The position numbers were made by a program, and so were the translations under genes. A DNA stretch of 64,000 nt from Stella humosa (GTDB lineage Bacteria; Pseudomonadota; Alphaproteobacteria; ATCC43930; Allostellaceae), in assembly GCF_006738645.1 (NCBI RefSeq), contig NZ_AP019700.1, positions 2,988,001-3,052,000 of the forward strand. The letters run 5' to 3'. Positions 14,726 to 27,637 of this stretch are shown here, piece by piece; positions within the stretch are counted from its first letter, which is position 1, and every line of letters starts with the position of its first letter. The notes under the pieces are model-generated. The model searched no databases. It saw nothing but the letters and a program-made list of their open reading frames with translations, and was not told the DNA's origin.

Positions 14726-16417
14726 ATGGATTACCTCCTGCATATCCTGGTCATGGTCGCGCTCTATGCGATCCTGGCCGGCTCGTTCAACCTGCTGATC
14801 GGCTTCTCGGGCCTGTTCGCGCTGTCGCACGCGGCCTTCTTCGGCGTCGGTGCCTATACCACGGCGATCCTGACCACCGGGTACGGACTGCCATTCCCCT
14901 GGCCGCTGCTGATCGGCATCGGCCTGGCCGCCCTGGTCGGGCTGGCGATCGGGCTGCCGGCGCTGCGGGTCGGCGGCGAGTATCTCGTCATCATCACGCT
15001 GGCCCTGCAGATCATTGCCGTCGCGGTCATGTTGAACTGGACCGCGCTGACGGGCGGGACGCAGGGCATCGGCGGCATCCCGCGCATCGTCGTGGCCGGC
15101 GTCGCGCTCGATACGGCCGGCCGGTTCCTGCCGATGGCAGCGGGGGTGGCTGCGCTCTCGCTATGGGCGGCGTGGCGGCTGGGCGCGTCCCCCTTCGGCC
15201 GCGCGCTGCGGGCGATGCGCGAGAACGAGGCCGCCGCCCAGGCAGTCGGCAAGAACGTGGTGGCGATGAAGCTGATCGTCTTCGCCGTCTCGGCCGGGAT
15301 CGCCTCGGTCGCGGGCGGACTCTATGCCCACTACATCGCCTTCGTCAGCGCCATCTCCTTCACCATCGAGACCACCATCTACATCCTGGCGATGGTGATC
15401 CTGGGCGGCACCGGCAACCTCGCCGGTTCGGTGCTGGGGGCGGCCATCCTGGTGGTGCTGCCCGAGCTGCTGAAGTTCGTCGACCTGCCGGCCGACATCG
15501 CCGACAAGCTGCGCCAGGTGCTCTACGGCGTCATCCTCATCGTCATGCTGCGGCTGCGGCCCGAAGGGCTGCTGCCCGAGCATGACGCCAAACGCGCGCG
15601 CGTCCCGCCCGGCCTGGGCGAGGACGGGCTGGGCGACCTGGCACCGTCGGCTGCGGCCGACGGCAAGGTGACGGTCGAGGGGCGCGACCTGATGAAGAGT
15701 TTCGGCGGCATCGTCGCCGTGCGCGACTTCTCGATCGACCTGCAACGCGGCCGCATCATCGGCCTGATCGGCCCCAATGGTGCCGGCAAGACCACCGCCT
15801 TCAACCTGCTGACGGGTTTTCTCAAGCCCAACGCCGGCACGGTGCGCTTCCGCGACGCCGTCATCTCCGGCCGGGCGCCGCACGACATCGTGCGCGCCGG
15901 CATGGCCCGCTCGTTCCAGGACCTGAAGCTCTTCCGCAAGATGACGGTGCTGGACAATGTCCGCGTGGCCCTGCCCCGGCAGAAAGGCGACGGCCTGTTC
16001 CACGTCTATTTCCTGCCCTGGATCGTGCGCGCCGAGGAACGCGCCAATCTCGGCCGGGCCATGGCCGTGCTGCGCTTCGTCGGGCTGGAGGGCCAGGCGG
16101 GCGAACTGGCCGAGAACCTGTCCTATGCCGAGGAGAAGCTGCTGGTGATCGCCCGCCTGCTGGCGACAGGCGCCGAGGTGCTGCTGTTCGACGAGCCGCT
16201 GTCCGGCCTCGACCCCGGCACGATGGAGGGCATCTTCCCGATCATCCGGCGGCTGGCCGAACAGGGCAAGACGATCTGCATCATCGAGCACAACCTCGAC
16301 GTCATCCGCGGCCTCTGCGACTGGGCGGTGTTCCTCGACGAGGGCCGCAAGATCGCCGAGGGCACGCCCGAGACGCTGATCGCCGACCCGGTCCTGGCGG
16401 AACGGTACTTCAAATGA
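14726..16417 (+). CDS. Fused ABC permease-ATPase, LivM-LivG
   Basis: 563 residues joining two subunits that are usually separate. Residues 1 to ~285 are LivM: several membrane segments, GFSGLFALSHAAFFGVGAYT and the loop MRENEAAAQAVGKNVVAMK. A linker of about 35 residues (HDAKRARVPPGLGEDGLGD and following) leads to LivG from ~315: Walker A GPNGAGKTT, Q-loop ARSFQDLKLF, Walker B LLFDEP, D-loop SGLDPG and H-loop IIEHNLD. The ABC signature reads LSYAEEK (residues ~465-471) instead of LSYGQQ/LSGGQ, with Ala at the usually invariant Gly. The stop overlaps livF by 4 bp (ATGA). No frameshift is needed, so the fusion looks genuine. Confidence 0.9.
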   Translation: MDYLLHILVMVALYAILAGSFNLLIGFSGLFALSHAAFFGVGAYTTAILTTGYGLPFPWPLLIGIGLAALVGLAIGLPALRVGGEYLVIITLALQIIAVAVMLNWTALTGGTQGIGGIPRIVVAGVALDTAGRFLPMAAGVAALSLWAAWRLGASPFGRALRAMRENEAAAQAVGKNVVAMKLIVFAVSAGIASVAGGLYAHYIAFVSAISFTIETTIYILAMVILGGTGNLAGSVLGAAILVVLPELLKFVDLPADIADKLRQVLYGVILIVMLRLRPEGLLPEHDAKRARVPPGLGEDGLGDLAPSAAADGKVTVEGRDLMKSFGGIVAVRDFSIDLQRGRIIGLIGPNGAGKTTAFNLLTGFLKPNAGTVRFRDAVISGRAPHDIVRAGMARSFQDLKLFRKMTVLDNVRVALPRQKGDGLFHVYFLPWIVRAEERANLGRAMAVLRFVGLEGQAGELAENLSYAEEKLLVIARLLATGAEVLLFDEPLSGLDPGTMEGIFPIIRRLAEQGKTICIIEHNLDVIRGLCDWAVFLDEGRKIAEGTPETLIADPVLAERYFK

Positions 16418-17124
16418 GCCAGATCATGCTCGAGGCGACCGCCATCGGTGCCGGCTATGGCCGCAAGCAGATCGTCCACGGCGTCGACCTCACGGTCGGC
16501 CAGGGCGAGATCCTGCTGGTGCTGGGCCACAACGGCGCCGGCAAGACGACCCTCATGCGCTCCCTCTTCGGCCTGCTGCCGCCGACCGCGGGCCGCATCC
16601 GCTACGAGGGCCGCGACATCGCCGGCCGCAGCCCGGCCCAGAACGTCGCCGACGGCATCGCCTTCATCCCCCAGGGCCACGGCATCTTCCGCACGCTCTC
16701 GGTGCGCGACAACCTCGACCTCGGCGCCTTCGTCGAGCCCGACAAGTCGCTGCTGCCGGAACGGCTGGAGAGCATCTATCGCATGTTCCCGATCCTGAAG
16801 GAGCGCGCCTCGCAGATCGGCGGCACGCTGTCGGGCGGCCAGCAGCAGATGCTGGCGATCGGCATGGCGCTGATGCACGCGCCCCGCCTCGTCATCCTGG
16901 ACGAGCCCTCGATCGGCCTTGCCCCCAACCTCGTCGACAAGGTGATGGAGGCCATCGCCTTCATCAACCGGACCATGGGGACGACCATCCTGATGGTCGA
17001 GCAGAACGTGAAGTACAGCCTGCCGATCGCATCCCGCGTCGCGGTGCTGAAGACCGGCCGCAAGATCTATGACGGCCCGCCCGACCCGTTGCACGACCGG
17101 GTCGAGCTGATGAAGCTGTTTTGA
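16414..17124 (+). CDS. livF: Branched-chain-type ABC transporter ATP-binding protein LivF
   Basis: 236 residues, a standard LivF: Walker A GHNGAGKTTLM, Q-loop FIPQGHGIF, canonical signature LSGGQQQMLAIGMAL, Walker B LVILDEPS, D-loop IGLAPNLVD and H-loop MVEQNV. It pairs with the LivG half of the upstream fusion to hydrolyse ATP. Because that partner has an altered signature, the ATP site formed by this protein's LSGGQ is the one expected to be fully competent. It is the last gene of the operon. Confidence 0.93.
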   Translation: MSQIMLEATAIGAGYGRKQIVHGVDLTVGQGEILLVLGHNGAGKTTLMRSLFGLLPPTAGRIRYEGRDIAGRSPAQNVADGIAFIPQGHGIFRTLSVRDNLDLGAFVEPDKSLLPERLESIYRMFPILKERASQIGGTLSGGQQQMLAIGMALMHAPRLVILDEPSIGLAPNLVDKVMEAIAFINRTMGTTILMVEQNVKYSLPIASRVAVLKTGRKIYDGPPDPLHDRVELMKLF

Positions 17125-22304: not shown

Positions 22305-22337
22305 AGATGCCTCGGCCCTTGCCCGGCGGAGGTGAAG

Positions 22338-23465
22338 ATGCAGCGACGCGCGCTATTGCTGGCCCTGATCGTGGCTGCCGCCATCCCCGTTCGATCCGTG
22401 ACCGCCGCCGAGCCGCTGGTCGTCGCCACGGTCGGCCCGATGACAGGCCAGTACGCCATCTTCGGCGAGCAGCTTCGTCGCGGTGCAGAGCTGGCGGTCG
22501 AGACCATCAATACCCAGGGCGGCGTGCTCGGCCGCAAGCTGCGGCTCGAGGTCGGCGACGACGCCTGTGACCCCAAGCAGGCCGTGGCGGTGGCGAACCG
22601 GCTGGCGACCCGGCGGGTGGCATTGGTCGCCGGCCACTACTGCTCCTCCTCCTCCATCCCGGCGCTGGCGGTCTACCACGAGGCCGGCATCCTGCAGATC
22701 ACGCCCGCTTCGACCGCGCCCGCGCTGACCGACGACGCCGCGCGCCGGAAGTGGCGCAACATCTTCCGCACCTATGGCCGGGACGATGCCCAGGCCAAGG
22801 TGTCCGGGCGCCTGCTGATCGAACGCTTCGGCGACCGCAACGTCGCCATCCTGCACGACAAGACCGCCTATGGCCGGGGCCTCGCCGACGAGACGCGCGC
22901 CGTCTATCGCCAGGGCGGGCGGCAGGAGGCGATGTACGAGGCGATCACCCAGGGCGACAAGGATTTCACCGCGCTGGTCACCAAGATGAAGGCGGCCCAG
23001 ATCGGCGCGATCTACCTGGGCGGCTACCATACCGAGGCGGGGCTGATCGTCCGCCAGGCACGCGACCAGGGGCTGGACGCGGTGATGATCTCGGGCGACG
23101 CGCTGGTCACCGACGAGTTCTGGAAGATCGCCGGCCAGTCCGGCACGGGCACGCTGATGACCTTCGCGCCCGACCCGCGGCAGGAGCCGGCGGCCGCCGC
23201 CGTGGTCGAGCGGTTCCGCCAGGGCGGCTACGAGCCGGAGGGCTATGCCCTCTACACCTATGCCGCGATCCAGGTCTGGGCGGCGGCCGCCACCAAGGCG
23301 AAGTCGGTGGCGACCGCCAAGGTGGCCGATGCCCTGCGCGCCGGCACGTTCGACACGGTCGTCGGCCAGCTCCGCTTCGATGCCAAGGGCGACGTGGTCG
23401 ATCCGAAATACGCGGTCTATGCCTGGAAGGACGGGCGCTACGCGGTGGCGGTCCCCGCGCGCTGA
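22338..23465 (+). CDS. Lone branched-chain-type ABC substrate-binding protein
   Basis: 375 residues: signal peptide MQRRALLLALIVAAAIPVRS, then a type I periplasmic binding fold (VATVGPMTGQYAIFGEQLRR, VETINTQGGVLGRKLRLEV, GHYCSSSSIPALAVYHEAG). It resembles LivK/LivJ and would bind an amino acid for an ABC importer. The ATG has GGAGGTG 4 bp upstream. No permease or ATPase genes follow, so it must share a transporter encoded elsewhere, possibly the liv system at 13.8-17.1 kb. Its 3' end overlaps the convergent haemoglobin gene by 28 bp. Confidence 0.88.
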   Translation: MQRRALLLALIVAAAIPVRSVTAAEPLVVATVGPMTGQYAIFGEQLRRGAELAVETINTQGGVLGRKLRLEVGDDACDPKQAVAVANRLATRRVALVAGHYCSSSSIPALAVYHEAGILQITPASTAPALTDDAARRKWRNIFRTYGRDDAQAKVSGRLLIERFGDRNVAILHDKTAYGRGLADETRAVYRQGGRQEAMYEAITQGDKDFTALVTKMKAAQIGAIYLGGYHTEAGLIVRQARDQGLDAVMISGDALVTDEFWKIAGQSGTGTLMTFAPDPRQEPAAAAVVERFRQGGYEPEGYALYTYAAIQVWAAAATKAKSVATAKVADALRAGTFDTVVGQLRFDAKGDVVDPKYAVYAWKDGRYAVAVPAR

Positions 23466-23938
23466 TCGACGTCCACCAGCCAGGCCGGGCGCGGCCGGCG
23501 CTGCGGGAACGGCCGGCCATGGTGGGTGGCGATGCCCAGCTCGAAGCTCTCGGCAATGCGGTGCGCCCGCTCCACGAAATGGGCGGCGGCCGCATCCCCG
23601 GCGCATTCGCGCCGGGCGGTTTCCTCGAACAGCGCCAGCCAACGATCGAAATGCGCCCGCTCCAGGCCCAGGCGGATATGCGGGGCCATCGGCCGGCCGT
23701 GGTAGCGCCCGGTCATCAGGGCGACCGAGGACCAGAAGTCGCACATCTGCGCCAAGTGGCGGTCCCAGTCCTTGACCTGGCCCAGGAAGACCGGCCCGAT
23801 CAACGGGTCGGCCCGCACGGCGCCATAGAAGGCGTGGACAAGCCGCCGGATCATCGCCTCGTCGATGCCCGTGCGCTCCATGACGTCCTGCGTCAGCAAC
23901 TGCCGGCGTTCCGGACCGCCTTCGTGATCGTCGCTCAT
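23438..23938 (-). CDS. Group III truncated haemoglobin
   Basis: 166 residues with a short globin fold. LVHAFYGAVRADPLIGPVF gives helix B with the likely Tyr B10 (Y38), then DRHLAQMCDFWSSV. GRYHGRPMAPHIRLGLERAHF contains the probable proximal His (H87), followed by FDRWLALFEET with the Trp typical of group III. Group III truncated haemoglobins bind O2/NO and are thought to handle nitrosative or oxidative stress. The C-terminal ~25 residues are Pro/Arg-rich and extend past the fold. It lies downstream of the chlorite-dismutase-family gene on the same strand, with 136 bp between. Confidence 0.8.
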   Translation of the reverse strand: MSDDHEGGPERRQLLTQDVMERTGIDEAMIRRLVHAFYGAVRADPLIGPVFLGQVKDWDRHLAQMCDFWSSVALMTGRYHGRPMAPHIRLGLERAHFDRWLALFEETARRECAGDAAAAHFVERAHRIAESFELGIATHHGRPFPQRRPRPAWLVDVDQRAGTATA

Positions 23939-24074
23939 GCCGAATACCCCGCGTTTGTCTGTCCGGAATGTCCGGCTGCGGCGCGGGGTCCGCAATGGGG
24001 TGCGACAGAGAGCCTCCCGGCCTGATCGACCTGGGCCGCTCGTCCGCCGGCGTGGGAGCCCATCGCTCCTTGGG

Positions 24075-24626
24075 CTACCAGCGCTCGAGGCGGATGTCGA
24101 CCTCCCGGTCGACGTAGCGCCACTCCGGGGTGTCCCGGAGCCGGGACACCATATCCTCGAACGCAGGGGCATCGCCTGGCGCATACTCGAACCAGGTCAG
24201 GAAGTCGAAGGGGCCGCCAAGTTCGCGGGCATGATGCAGGCGCCGGGCGACCCCGGGCAGGTATTGCAGGCCGATGGCGATGTGCCGCGACTGTTCCTCG
24301 AAGATTGCCCTGCGCTCGTCCTGGGCCAGCGCCCACCACGCCTCGGTCTTGCGGATGGGGATGAGGGCCGCCCTCGTTGCGAGGGGCCGACCAAGCCCCT
24401 GCTGTACCGCCGACAGGGCGTCGACCTCGGCCCGTTGCGTGTAGCGGGTGTTGCTGGTGGTCCCGCGCAATATCCAAGTGCTGCCGGATACGGGTGCAGC
24501 AGCCCCTTCCTCGATCGCCAGTCGGTCGGCCAGCGCAAGGCTCTCGCCGGTGACGGCGTCGATGCGGTCGATGCGCCAGGGTCCGGCGGTCCCCGCGATG
24601 AAGTGAACCAGGAGCGGTGGCGGCAT
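24075..24626 (-). CDS. Chlorite dismutase-family haem protein, short form with catalytic Arg
   Basis: 183 residues matching the short (single-domain) chlorite dismutase branch: WILRGTTSNTRYTQRAEVDAL, then EEQSRHIAIGLQYLPGVARR and GGPFDFLTWFEYAP. The proximal haem ligand is H115. Thirteen residues later R128 stands where chlorite-decomposing enzymes keep their distal Arg (H114/R127 in the short Nitrobacter and Cyanothece proteins, as I recall). HemQ-type relatives lack this Arg. The protein therefore may convert chlorite to chloride and O2. The start is ATG at 24626, 32 bp after the GNAT stop; a TTG at 24662 is an alternative. There is no signal peptide, so it is cytoplasmic. No perchlorate or nitrite reductase gene is nearby. 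Confidence 0.78.
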   Translation of the reverse strand: MPPPLLVHFIAGTAGPWRIDRIDAVTGESLALADRLAIEEGAAAPVSGSTWILRGTTSNTRYTQRAEVDALSAVQQGLGRPLATRAALIPIRKTEAWWALAQDERRAIFEEQSRHIAIGLQYLPGVARRLHHARELGGPFDFLTWFEYAPGDAPAFEDMVSRLRDTPEWRYVDREVDIRLERW

Positions 24627-24658
24627 TGCTGGACGGTATCCCGACTGGTGGAACCCGA

Positions 24659-25165
24659 TCAACCGCAGCCTGCCGGCTGCGTCAGGCCCAGCATGAGGTA
24701 GCGCACGCTTTTGCCACGATCTGGCAGCGTCGCCCGCCCGACCTCGCGGAAGCCCAGTGCGGCATGGAACGCATCGGAGCCGGGGTTGGGCGGATCGGTA
24801 TTGACCTCGCAGCAGACCCGGTCATGGCCTGCCGCGACGGCTGCGGCGAAGAAGTCGGCATAGAGCGCCCGTGCCAACCCGCGGCCGCGCCCGGCCGGCG
24901 CCACCACCACCCGGTCGACATAGGCGAAGCGGGGATGGCGCGCCCGGAACCACAGGAAGTTCGGGCTGTCATAGGCGGCATCCTGGTCGAGCCCGACCAG
25001 GAGTGCGGCCCCCTCCCCGGCCATGCGCGCATGGAAGGCGGTGGCCAGCAGCGCCGCCAGCCCATCGGCCGACAGGAGCGACAGCTCGGTCGCGTGGTCG
25101 TTGTTCAGCGCCAGCAGACGCGCATGATCGGCAGCCGACGGCCGGCGCAGCACCGGCGCCGTCAT
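24659..25165 (-). CDS. GNAT-family N-acetyltransferase
   Basis: 168 residues of the GNAT fold. The acetyl-CoA loop is visible in RVVVAPAGRGRGLARALYADF, and the C-terminal strand region as NPGSDAFHAALGFREVGRAT. It transfers an acyl group from acyl-CoA to an amine. The ATG at 25165 overlaps the stop of the acyl-CoA synthetase by 4 bp (ATGA), so translation is coupled. GNAT proteins next to NDP-forming acyl-CoA synthetases are often lysine acetyltransferases that control them (Pat-type); that is plausible here but not shown. Confidence 0.8.
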   Translation of the reverse strand: MTAPVLRRPSAADHARLLALNNDHATELSLLSADGLAALLATAFHARMAGEGAALLVGLDQDAAYDSPNFLWFRARHPRFAYVDRVVVAPAGRGRGLARALYADFFAAAVAAGHDRVCCEVNTDPPNPGSDAFHAALGFREVGRATLPDRGKSVRYLMLGLTQPAGCG

Positions 25166-27249
25166 GCGCGCTCCACCAGCGCATCGACGATGGCCGTCGG
25201 CTCGCCGGCCGCGCCGACCATCACAGGGTTGAGGTCGACCGATGCGATGCGGCCGCCGGCCGCCTGCATCAGGGCGCCCAGGCGCACCGCCGCGTCGGCA
25301 TAGGCAGCAAGGTCGAGCGCCGGCTCGCCGCGCGTGCCCTTCAGGATGGGCGCGATGCGCAGGCCCATCAGCGCGTCGACCACTTCGGCGGCAGAGAAGG
25401 GCGGCACCAGGATGGCGACGTCGCCCAGCGCCTCGACATACTTGCCGCCGTCGCCGACCATGATCGCCGGCCCGACCATCGGGTCCAGCCTGGCGCCCAG
25501 GACCAGCTCGCGCCGGCCCTTCACCATGGCCGCGACGATCACGCCTTCGGCCGCTGCCCCCATCGCCGCCAGGGCCGCCATCTGCCCCTCGAAGGCGGCG
25601 GCGACCGCGTCGGCGTCGGCCAGGCCCAAGGCCACCAGCCCATGCTCGGACTTGTGCGGCACGTCGGCCGAGCAAGCCTTCACGGCCACCGGCCCGCCCA
25701 GCTCGGCGAAGGCCGCGCGCGCTTCGGCCACCGTGCGGCACATCCGGTGCGGCACCACCGGCATGCCCTGCGCCGCCAGCAGCGCCAGGCTGTCGGCCTC
25801 GTTCAGGAACGGCGTCGACCCGGCCGGCAGATTGACCGGCGCGGCGGCCGGCATCGTCGGCAGCGCGGTCCGCATCAGCGCCGTGTGCGCCGCAAGCTGC
25901 GCCAGGGCGCGCATGGCCGTGGTCTCGTTGGCATAGGTCGGGATGCCGGCCTCGGCGAAGATGGCCGCAATGTTGGGCTGCGGCACGCCGAGTGCCACCG
26001 GCTTGCCGGTGTCGGCCATGAACTGCGCGGTGTCGCGGGCGAACGCCGCCACGTCGTAGCCGGCGCCGGCGACTGGAATGGCGATGAAGAACAGGTCGGC
26101 CGCCGGGTCGCGCCCGACGATCGGCAGGATGTCGCTGAAGAGCCGGCTGTTCGACAGCAGGGCCGCCGTCACGTCGATCGGGTTGGTGGTGGTGGCAAAG
26201 CCCGGCAGCACGCCCTTCAGCCCCTCCACCGTCTCCGCCTGGAAGCGGCCGAGTGGCAGGCCAAGCTCGGTCGCGCGGTCGGCCGCCATGACGCAACTCG
26301 CACCCGAATTGCTGATGGCGACGATGCGTCGCCCCTCGGGCCGCCAGCCCTTCAGATACAGCTCGGCCGCCGCGCACCAGTCATGCATGTCGCTGGCGCG
26401 CCAGATGCCGTGGCGGCGCAGGAAGGCATCGATCACCCGGTCCTCGCCCGCCAGCGAGCCGGTATGCGAGCGCGCTGCCTGGGCGCCGGCCGCCGTCCGC
26501 CCGGCCTTCAGCGCCAGGATCGGCAGGTCGCGGGCACGGGCCGCCGCCGCCAGCTCGGCCAGGCGCGGCGCGTCGGTCATCCCTTCGAGATAGATCAGCA
26601 GCAGCTTGATGTCGGGATCGGCCACCATCGCCTGGGCCAGCTCGATCGCCGTCAGGTCGGAATCATTGCCCGTCGCGCAGACATAGCGCACGCCGATCCC
26701 GCGGCCGCGCAGCAGCGAATATGGCACCAGGCTGGTGGCGCCGCTCTGGCTGACGATGCCGACCGGGCCGTCGGCGGGCGGCGCCTCGATGAACATGGTG
26801 GCGAAGTTGGCGACGGCACCCGTGGCGAAGTTCGCCAGCCCCTGGCTGTTCGGGCCGACGATGCGCATGCCGCGCGCCCGGGCGCGAGCCACCATGGCGC
26901 GCTGCGCCTCCAGCCCCGCCTCGCCCGTCTCGCCGAAGCCCGATGCCATCACCACGCAGACCTTCACCCCGCGCTCACCGCAGGCGTCGATTGCCTGGAT
27001 GCCGGCCTCTCCCGGGATGGCGACGACGACCAGTTCCGGCGCCTCGGGCAACGAGGCGAGGTCGGGATAGGCCTTGTAGCCCTGGATCTCGGGCCGGGTC
27101 GGGTTGATGGGATAGACGGCACCCTTGAAGCCGAACTTGGACAGGAAGTGGATCGGTCGCCCGCCGACCTTGTTGGGGTTCTCGGACGCGCCGATGACAG
27201 CGACGGAGCGCGGGTTGAGGGCGGCGCGAAGGCCTTCGTCGAGCGGCAT
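25162..27249 (-). CDS. NDP-forming acyl-CoA synthetase (acetate-CoA ligase family)
   Basis: 695 residues with the domain order of ADP-forming acyl-CoA synthetases. First comes a CoA-binding Rossmann domain (LNPRSVAVIGASENPNKVGG), then a flavodoxin-like ligase region (GIVSQSGATS; ALKAGRTAAGAQAARSHTGS, whose His would be phosphorylated). A C-terminal ATP-grasp domain follows (GGPVAVKACSADVPHKSEHG). It interconverts acyl-CoA + ADP + Pi with acid + CoA + ATP. The ATG at 27249 follows AGGA by 6 bp. It sits between the DUF35/thiolase pair and a GNAT, suggesting one catabolic operon. A paralogue lies at 43448-45598. Confidence 0.88.
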   Translation of the reverse strand: MPLDEGLRAALNPRSVAVIGASENPNKVGGRPIHFLSKFGFKGAVYPINPTRPEIQGYKAYPDLASLPEAPELVVVAIPGEAGIQAIDACGERGVKVCVVMASGFGETGEAGLEAQRAMVARARARGMRIVGPNSQGLANFATGAVANFATMFIEAPPADGPVGIVSQSGATSLVPYSLLRGRGIGVRYVCATGNDSDLTAIELAQAMVADPDIKLLLIYLEGMTDAPRLAELAAAARARDLPILALKAGRTAAGAQAARSHTGSLAGEDRVIDAFLRRHGIWRASDMHDWCAAAELYLKGWRPEGRRIVAISNSGASCVMAADRATELGLPLGRFQAETVEGLKGVLPGFATTTNPIDVTAALLSNSRLFSDILPIVGRDPAADLFFIAIPVAGAGYDVAAFARDTAQFMADTGKPVALGVPQPNIAAIFAEAGIPTYANETTAMRALAQLAAHTALMRTALPTMPAAAPVNLPAGSTPFLNEADSLALLAAQGMPVVPHRMCRTVAEARAAFAELGGPVAVKACSADVPHKSEHGLVALGLADADAVAAAFEGQMAALAAMGAAAEGVIVAAMVKGRRELVLGARLDPMVGPAIMVGDGGKYVEALGDVAILVPPFSAAEVVDALMGLRIAPILKGTRGEPALDLAAYADAAVRLGALMQAAGGRIASVDLNPVMVGAAGEPTAIVDALVERA

Positions 27250-27274
27250 GGCGATCCTGGGGAAGATTGGGGAA

Positions 27275-27637
27275 TCAAAGGGCGACGAAGCGCGGCAGGT
27301 GCCGCCCCTCATGCGCCAGGAAGGTGACCGCGACCCGCTGACCGATCGCCAGGCCGGGCATGCCGTGGGCCATCATGCGCACCCCCTCGTCGAGGTCGAC
27401 CAGCAGGATGGCATAGGGGACCAGCGGCCGGAATGCGTCGGACGGCGCGCGGGTGACGAGGGTGGCTGCGTGCACCGTGCCGGTGCCCGCCGCCCGCCGC
27501 CATTGCAGCGAGGTCGACCCGCAGGCGGTGCAGAATTCGCGCGGGAAAGTCTGCCACGTGTCGCAGGATGTGCAGCGGCGCAGGCGCAACTCGCCCGCCG
27601 CACAGCCATCCCAGAAATGCCTTGCCAGCGGTTCCAT
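27275..27637 (-). CDS. DUF35 OB-fold / zinc-ribbon acyl-CoA-associated protein
   Basis: 120 residues. A rubredoxin-like zinc ribbon, CTSC then CTACG 14-17 residues on (RRCTSCDTW ... REFCTACGS), precedes an OB-fold domain (GTGTVHAATLVTR ... YAILLVDLDEGVRMMAH). DUF35 proteins bind acyl-CoA and partner thiolase-like enzymes; ChsH2-type partners support steroid side-chain hydration and retro-aldol cleavage. The start ATG at 27637 overlaps the thiolase-like stop (TGATG), the usual coupling for such complexes. A GTG at 27640 is also possible. Confidence 0.88.
   Translation of the reverse strand: MEPLARHFWDGCAAGELRLRRCTSCDTWQTFPREFCTACGSTSLQWRRAAGTGTVHAATLVTRAPSDAFRPLVPYAILLVDLDEGVRMMAHGMPGLAIGQRVAVTFLAHEGRHLPRFVAL

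Follow-up and report, generated by a model that had tools for sequence, protein, structure and literature searches.

A clade 2 chlorite dismutase gene in Stella humosa, probably a lone insertion beside a resident truncated haemoglobin gene

Chlorite chemistry and a dimeric enzyme are established for the clade 2 family of chlorite dismutases (Cld), and HemQ, or coproheme decarboxylase, lacks the distal catalytic Arg and has a longer subunit. The clade 2 enzyme CCld of Cyanothece sp. PCC7425 has 182 residues and the truncated N-terminus typical of its clade, and its description raises the physiological role of clade 2 and alternative substrates such as bromite as open questions (PMC4973843). The clade 2 pocket comprises H114, R127 and Q74, of which Q74 hydrogen-bonds R127, and CCld turns over chlorite with a kcat/KM near 10^6 per M per s at pH 5-7 (PMC7931450). 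A survey of 8751 cld neighbourhoods describes diverse gene contexts, reports that Cld has been transferred horizontally on a large scale, and notes its presence in aerobes that lack (per)chlorate-reducing enzymes; its Table 1 (subfamilies, clustering coefficient under 0.1) holds no globin, and in its main text the word globin occurs once, within a reference title (PMC9751292). Our literature search found no earlier description of a gene pair of chlorite dismutase and truncated haemoglobin, which fits the pair being local to the species. Here, we describe such neighbours in a 64,000-nucleotide stretch of Stella humosa DNA (contig NZ_AP019700.1, positions 2,988,001 to 3,052,000; hereafter the window, whose own numbering is used below), and read them, with a probability of about 0.87, as a normal clade 2 Cld whose gene was recently inserted on its own beside a resident, unrelated globin gene.

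The cld frame (24075..24626, minus strand), supported by frame reading, Pfam and phmmer searches, alignment and fold prediction, starts with ATG and encodes 183 residues, which fits the short clade 2 subunit (about 180-190 residues) without the clade 1 N-terminal part; judged by length, the protein is lineage 2a-like. In the Pfam search, PF06778 (Chlor_dismutase) scored 35.4 bits against a curated cut-off of 25 and matched this one gene in the genome, and NCBIfam assigned no family to either the Cld or the globin protein. Eighteen distinct PDB sequences match Cld by phmmer: the best seven are all clade 2 (9gtj from Pseudomonas sp., 3qpi from Nitrobacter winogradskyi, and CCld with its variants; E 1.3e-61 to 1.9e-53), and the remaining 11 are clade 1 (E 2e-10 or weaker). 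H115 aligns with H114 of 3qpi and R128, 13 residues further on, with R127 (positions counted from the phmmer alignment), and Q75 aligns with the Gln of 3qpi and 9gtj; mapped via the 3qpi numbering, these three residues correspond to H114, R127 and Q74 of CCld. Overall, the protein resembles the N. winogradskyi enzyme (NwCld, 3qpi) in length, fold (Z 27.8), proximal His, distal Arg and loop Gln, although the two are only 58% identical over 174 columns, and it resembles CCld (5k8z and variants) in fold (Z 27.7-28.7), although the two share about 50% identity.

An AlphaFold2 model, built from 40 sequences (the window protein and 39 loci hand-picked from the 80 introduced below), has a mean pLDDT of 87.5 and lies nearest to clade 2, with Z 27.7-28.8 against 12 clade 2 entries, 14.8-16.7 against clade 1 entries, and 12.8-14.1 against HemQ/coproheme decarboxylases and Cld-like entries. 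The HemQ/coproheme decarboxylase entries have chains of 214-251 residues and 15-16% identity to the window protein; a HemQ identity was rejected on the presence of R128, the 183-residue length and the low Z (about 13-14). In a conservation alignment of 91 rows (the window, 88 cld loci and two PDB stretches), the His is present in all 91, the Arg in 90 and the Gln in 83, and the sole row without Arg (L022) is cut at an in-frame stop, beyond which the Arg is present in frame. By alignment, R128 sits in the right place, and Arg is the normal residue there in this family. Judged by these comparisons, the window protein is an ordinary clade 2 (dimeric type) chlorite dismutase, for which a haem b homodimer and chlorite turnover are predicted from the family. 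A preliminary description, made from the letters of this DNA, had given the length, the coordinates and the two residues with their spacing correctly, as confirmed by reading the frame and aligning it to 3qpi, and its assignment to the chlorite-decomposing type rather than HemQ agrees with the residues, the best PDB matches and the fold. Its view of the Arg and the setting as unusual finds no support, given how common the Arg is in the alignment and that Cld without (per)chlorate reduction is already published (PMC9751292).

Transcription on the minus strand between 23438 and 27312 runs in the order ligase, GNAT, cld, globin. The ligase is an ADP-forming acyl-CoA ligase (25162..27312; CoA_binding_2, Succ_CoA_lig and ATP-grasp_5 domains), and the GNAT acetyltransferase gene (24659..25153, minus strand) ends 32 bp before cld, which in turn is separated by 136 bp from the globin gene. 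The preliminary description, which placed cld downstream of an acyl-CoA synthetase, had overlooked the GNAT gene between the two. The operon-like, same-strand spacing makes co-expression of cld with the globin gene possible; no promoter- or terminator-like site was found in 23300-27500, although such a scan has little power in a genome so rich in GC. Both ligase and GNAT genes are present at the locus in congeners without cld, and neither is therefore evidence for the role of cld. From the other side, a plus-strand gene for a branched-chain amino-acid type substrate-binding protein (22326..23465) converges on the globin gene and overlaps its end by 28 bp.

The globin gene (23438..23938, minus strand) encodes 166 residues, and its product matches only itself in the window's genome. 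Its phmmer match to the group III structure 2ig3, which we take to be Campylobacter jejuni Ctb, has E 7e-13 over 110 residues, compared with 3e-4 and 5e-4 for two other solved globins, and Pfam Bac_globin falls just below its cut-off (19.8 vs 21 bits). Residues Y38, H61 and H87 align with Y19, H46 and H72 of 2ig3 (counted from the alignment) and are presumably the Tyr, the distal His and the proximal His, respectively. The likeness to 2ig3 is one of sequence, and the window globin differs from it in carrying N- and C-terminal extensions. On these matches the protein is a group III truncated haemoglobin, as had been proposed for the adjoining same-strand gene, with haem binding and reaction with O2 or NO predicted; by analogy with its family, its role is most likely a separate O2 or NO function.

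The genus sample comprises four genomes, all of which carry the globin gene and one of which, the window's own, carries cld. By protein identity G003 is the nearest congener, its cyclase being 94% identical to that of the window (88% for G001 and 83% for G002). Between the cyclase and thiolase genes, blastn blocks of G003 track the window; past the thiolase gene the two diverge. Within the shared part, G003 has about 2.2 kb more than the window between the aminotransferase and substrate-binding protein genes. By eye, a thiolase-like gene is seen there in G003 (L106:6610-7935), against about 100 bp in the window. At cld, the blocks stop at window position 24023 and restart at 24696, such that 672 bp in the window stand against 17 bp in G003. 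By alignment, this extra segment (24024..24695, with break points uncertain by some bases) holds cld and the last GNAT codons; the last GNAT residues, which differ from those of G003 and G002, seem to be encoded by the insert.

At the same site in G003 and in both G002 copies, GNAT is followed directly by globin across a short spacer without cld, and the substrate-binding protein gene lies beside globin in these genomes too; it was not found in the G001 stretch. The GNAT-globin spacer of G001 consists of 3.8 kb of other sequence (L105:10255-14036) with two long ORFs of acidic glycine-/aspartate-rich tandem repeats, which by motif we take to be RTX-like, indicating that this spacer took different insertions in sister species. 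The two G002 copies (L107 and L108) are diverged ligase-GNAT-globin loci from separate contigs of a single draft assembly (570 contigs, 5% contamination), and represent either a duplication or a mixed bin.

No mobile element or clear duplication was found at the segment ends; repeats in 23940-24740, considered as traces of a mobile element at the junction, are short, none exceeding 18 nt, and look like chance matches. Third-position G+C content (GC3) is 0.84 for cld, near the 0.83 of GNAT and 0.90 of globin, and composition therefore gives no sign of foreign origin. In a Cld tree, from which L022 was left out for its in-frame stop, the window row groups with six alpha- and betaproteobacterial rows without strong support, and with no well-supported branch around it no donor is indicated. 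Transfer vehicles are common, as the Cld protein has matches in 529 of 72,556 plasmid records.

To place the neighbours in a wider frame, cld loci were scanned with patterns of the window Cld itself, and the best 80 of 400 confirmed loci were retained, which are for that reason near relatives rather than a random sample; flanks extend on both sides for at least 3 kb in 62 and at least 9 kb in 43 of the 80. Searches of these flanks covered group III-like globins, with the window globin as query and an iterated globin profile, and found one at a single locus of these best 80, in a Cytophagales sequence (L059), where it lies about 4.6 kb upstream of cld on the same strand with several ORFs between. 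A neighbour survey, in which 18 genes of the window, cld among them, were sought at 88 loci (E up to 1e-10), placed the globin near cld at one locus, the aminotransferase at two and the alpha/beta hydrolase at one, and two genes upstream in the window (14726-16417 and 16414-17124) at eight loci each; the other window neighbours, including GNAT and the ligase, were near cld at none of the 88. Clustering of ORFs within 3.5 kb at the 88 loci was tried as a way to a conserved cld neighbour and rejected, the top clusters being shadow frames of cld; the largest real-looking cluster is an SDR-like family at seven loci. Across the window's genome and those of 60 relatives, 61 in all, globin occurs in 24 and cld in two; among the 57 relatives outside the genus sample, the one with cld is from another family of the class. 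Among 387 genomes of the class, cld is found in nine, globin in 108 and both in six, and globin is present in 6 of 9 genomes with cld against 102 of 378 others, which is above expectation (Fisher p 0.016 with the window's genome counted and 0.040 with it left out, both uncorrected for genome size or kinship). We give this mild genome-level enrichment little weight.

The preliminary description had taken the two genes as a hint of a detoxification pair. In such a pair, Cld would remove chlorite and yield O2, the globin would bind O2 or oxidise NO, and both would be co-expressed under oxidative or nitrosative stress. Their shared strand, the 136-bp gap, the want of a terminator- or promoter-like site between 23300 and 27500 in that weak scan and the mild co-occurrence within the class all lean towards a pair, but the wider comparison makes it very improbable: a group III-like globin at one of the best 80 loci, 4.6 kb away, and genes that are near each other in none of the five other class genomes with both (about 124 kb apart in G343, a megabase or more in G214, G291 and G346, and on different contigs in G182). 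Conservation of the gene pair had been named in advance as what the proposal depended on, and the pair is not conserved: in each of the three sampled congeners, too, the globin occurs but cld does not. On sequence evidence, cld and globin look like chance neighbours. A variant, in which the lone cld was fixed here because co-transcription with a resident O2/NO-binding globin was useful, so that an O2 producer and an O2 binder became coupled after capture, strikes us as extremely doubtful; if true, it would offer a freshly assembled detoxification unit, comparable with sister species without cld at the site. An ancestral cld, present when the genus arose and since lost from all three sampled congeners, is also quite improbable. 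The other sequence in the G001 spacer shows that the site has been rearranged, and the shortest tree paths from the window Cld lead to other alphaproteobacteria, both of which would suit ancestry, but three separate losses would be required, and cld is found in only one of the 57 further relatives, in another family of the class. One gain is preferred over three losses as involving fewer events, G003 being the nearest congener, and the likeliest history is that a lone cld was recently captured by a ligase-GNAT-globin row already in place.

Under this preferred reading of a lone insertion, cld would have entered at the GNAT 3' end, inside a resident same-strand row, and might be transcribed from the promoter of that row. 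Its product would be a small haem b enzyme of the cytoplasm, belonging to a family of homodimers, with the ferric haem iron held, as in the family, by H115; chlorite would dock on the distal side of the haem, the Cl-O bond would then be cut, R128, held by Q75, would keep the short-lived oxychlorine intermediate close to the ferryl oxygen, and chloride and O2 would then be released. We infer this chemistry and the dimer for the window protein from their being established for the family. Cld probably protects the cell when chlorite is occasionally met, and the globin, resident earlier, would serve an O2 or NO role of its own as a neighbour rather than a partner. It is unlikely, though less so than the readings above, that the substrate in vivo is another halogen oxyanion or a peroxide, with chlorite turnover as a side activity. 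In favour of this reading, no narG, TIGR03479 or napA match that might point to a source of chlorite stands above cut-off in the whole 5.83-Mb genome (TIGR03479, the type II DMSO-reductase alpha model, presumably covers (per)chlorate reductases), and weaker matches to these models exist, as expected from other molybdo-enzymes. Such alternatives have been raised for clade 2 (PMC4973843), but the pocket residues tested here match those of clade 2 enzymes whose chlorite degradation has been characterised.

The significance of the locus is modest: it adds a clear example of a single cld at a chromosomal position that occurs without the gene in sister genomes, in agreement with the published view that cld spread horizontally and is kept by occasional chlorite exposure. 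It also illustrates that a shared cofactor and adjacency can mimic a functional pair where comparative data indicate chance. Several further cld copies were noted among the sequences surveyed. A 69-kb IMG/VR contig filed as viral (L003) carries a Cld at zero branch length to PDB 9gtj, and may be plasmid or host DNA rather than a virus. Some cld copies appear to be broken: in G370 (L115 and L116), the matching sequence falls in two frames, one of them interrupted by a stop, and L022:10001-10549 has one in-frame stop.
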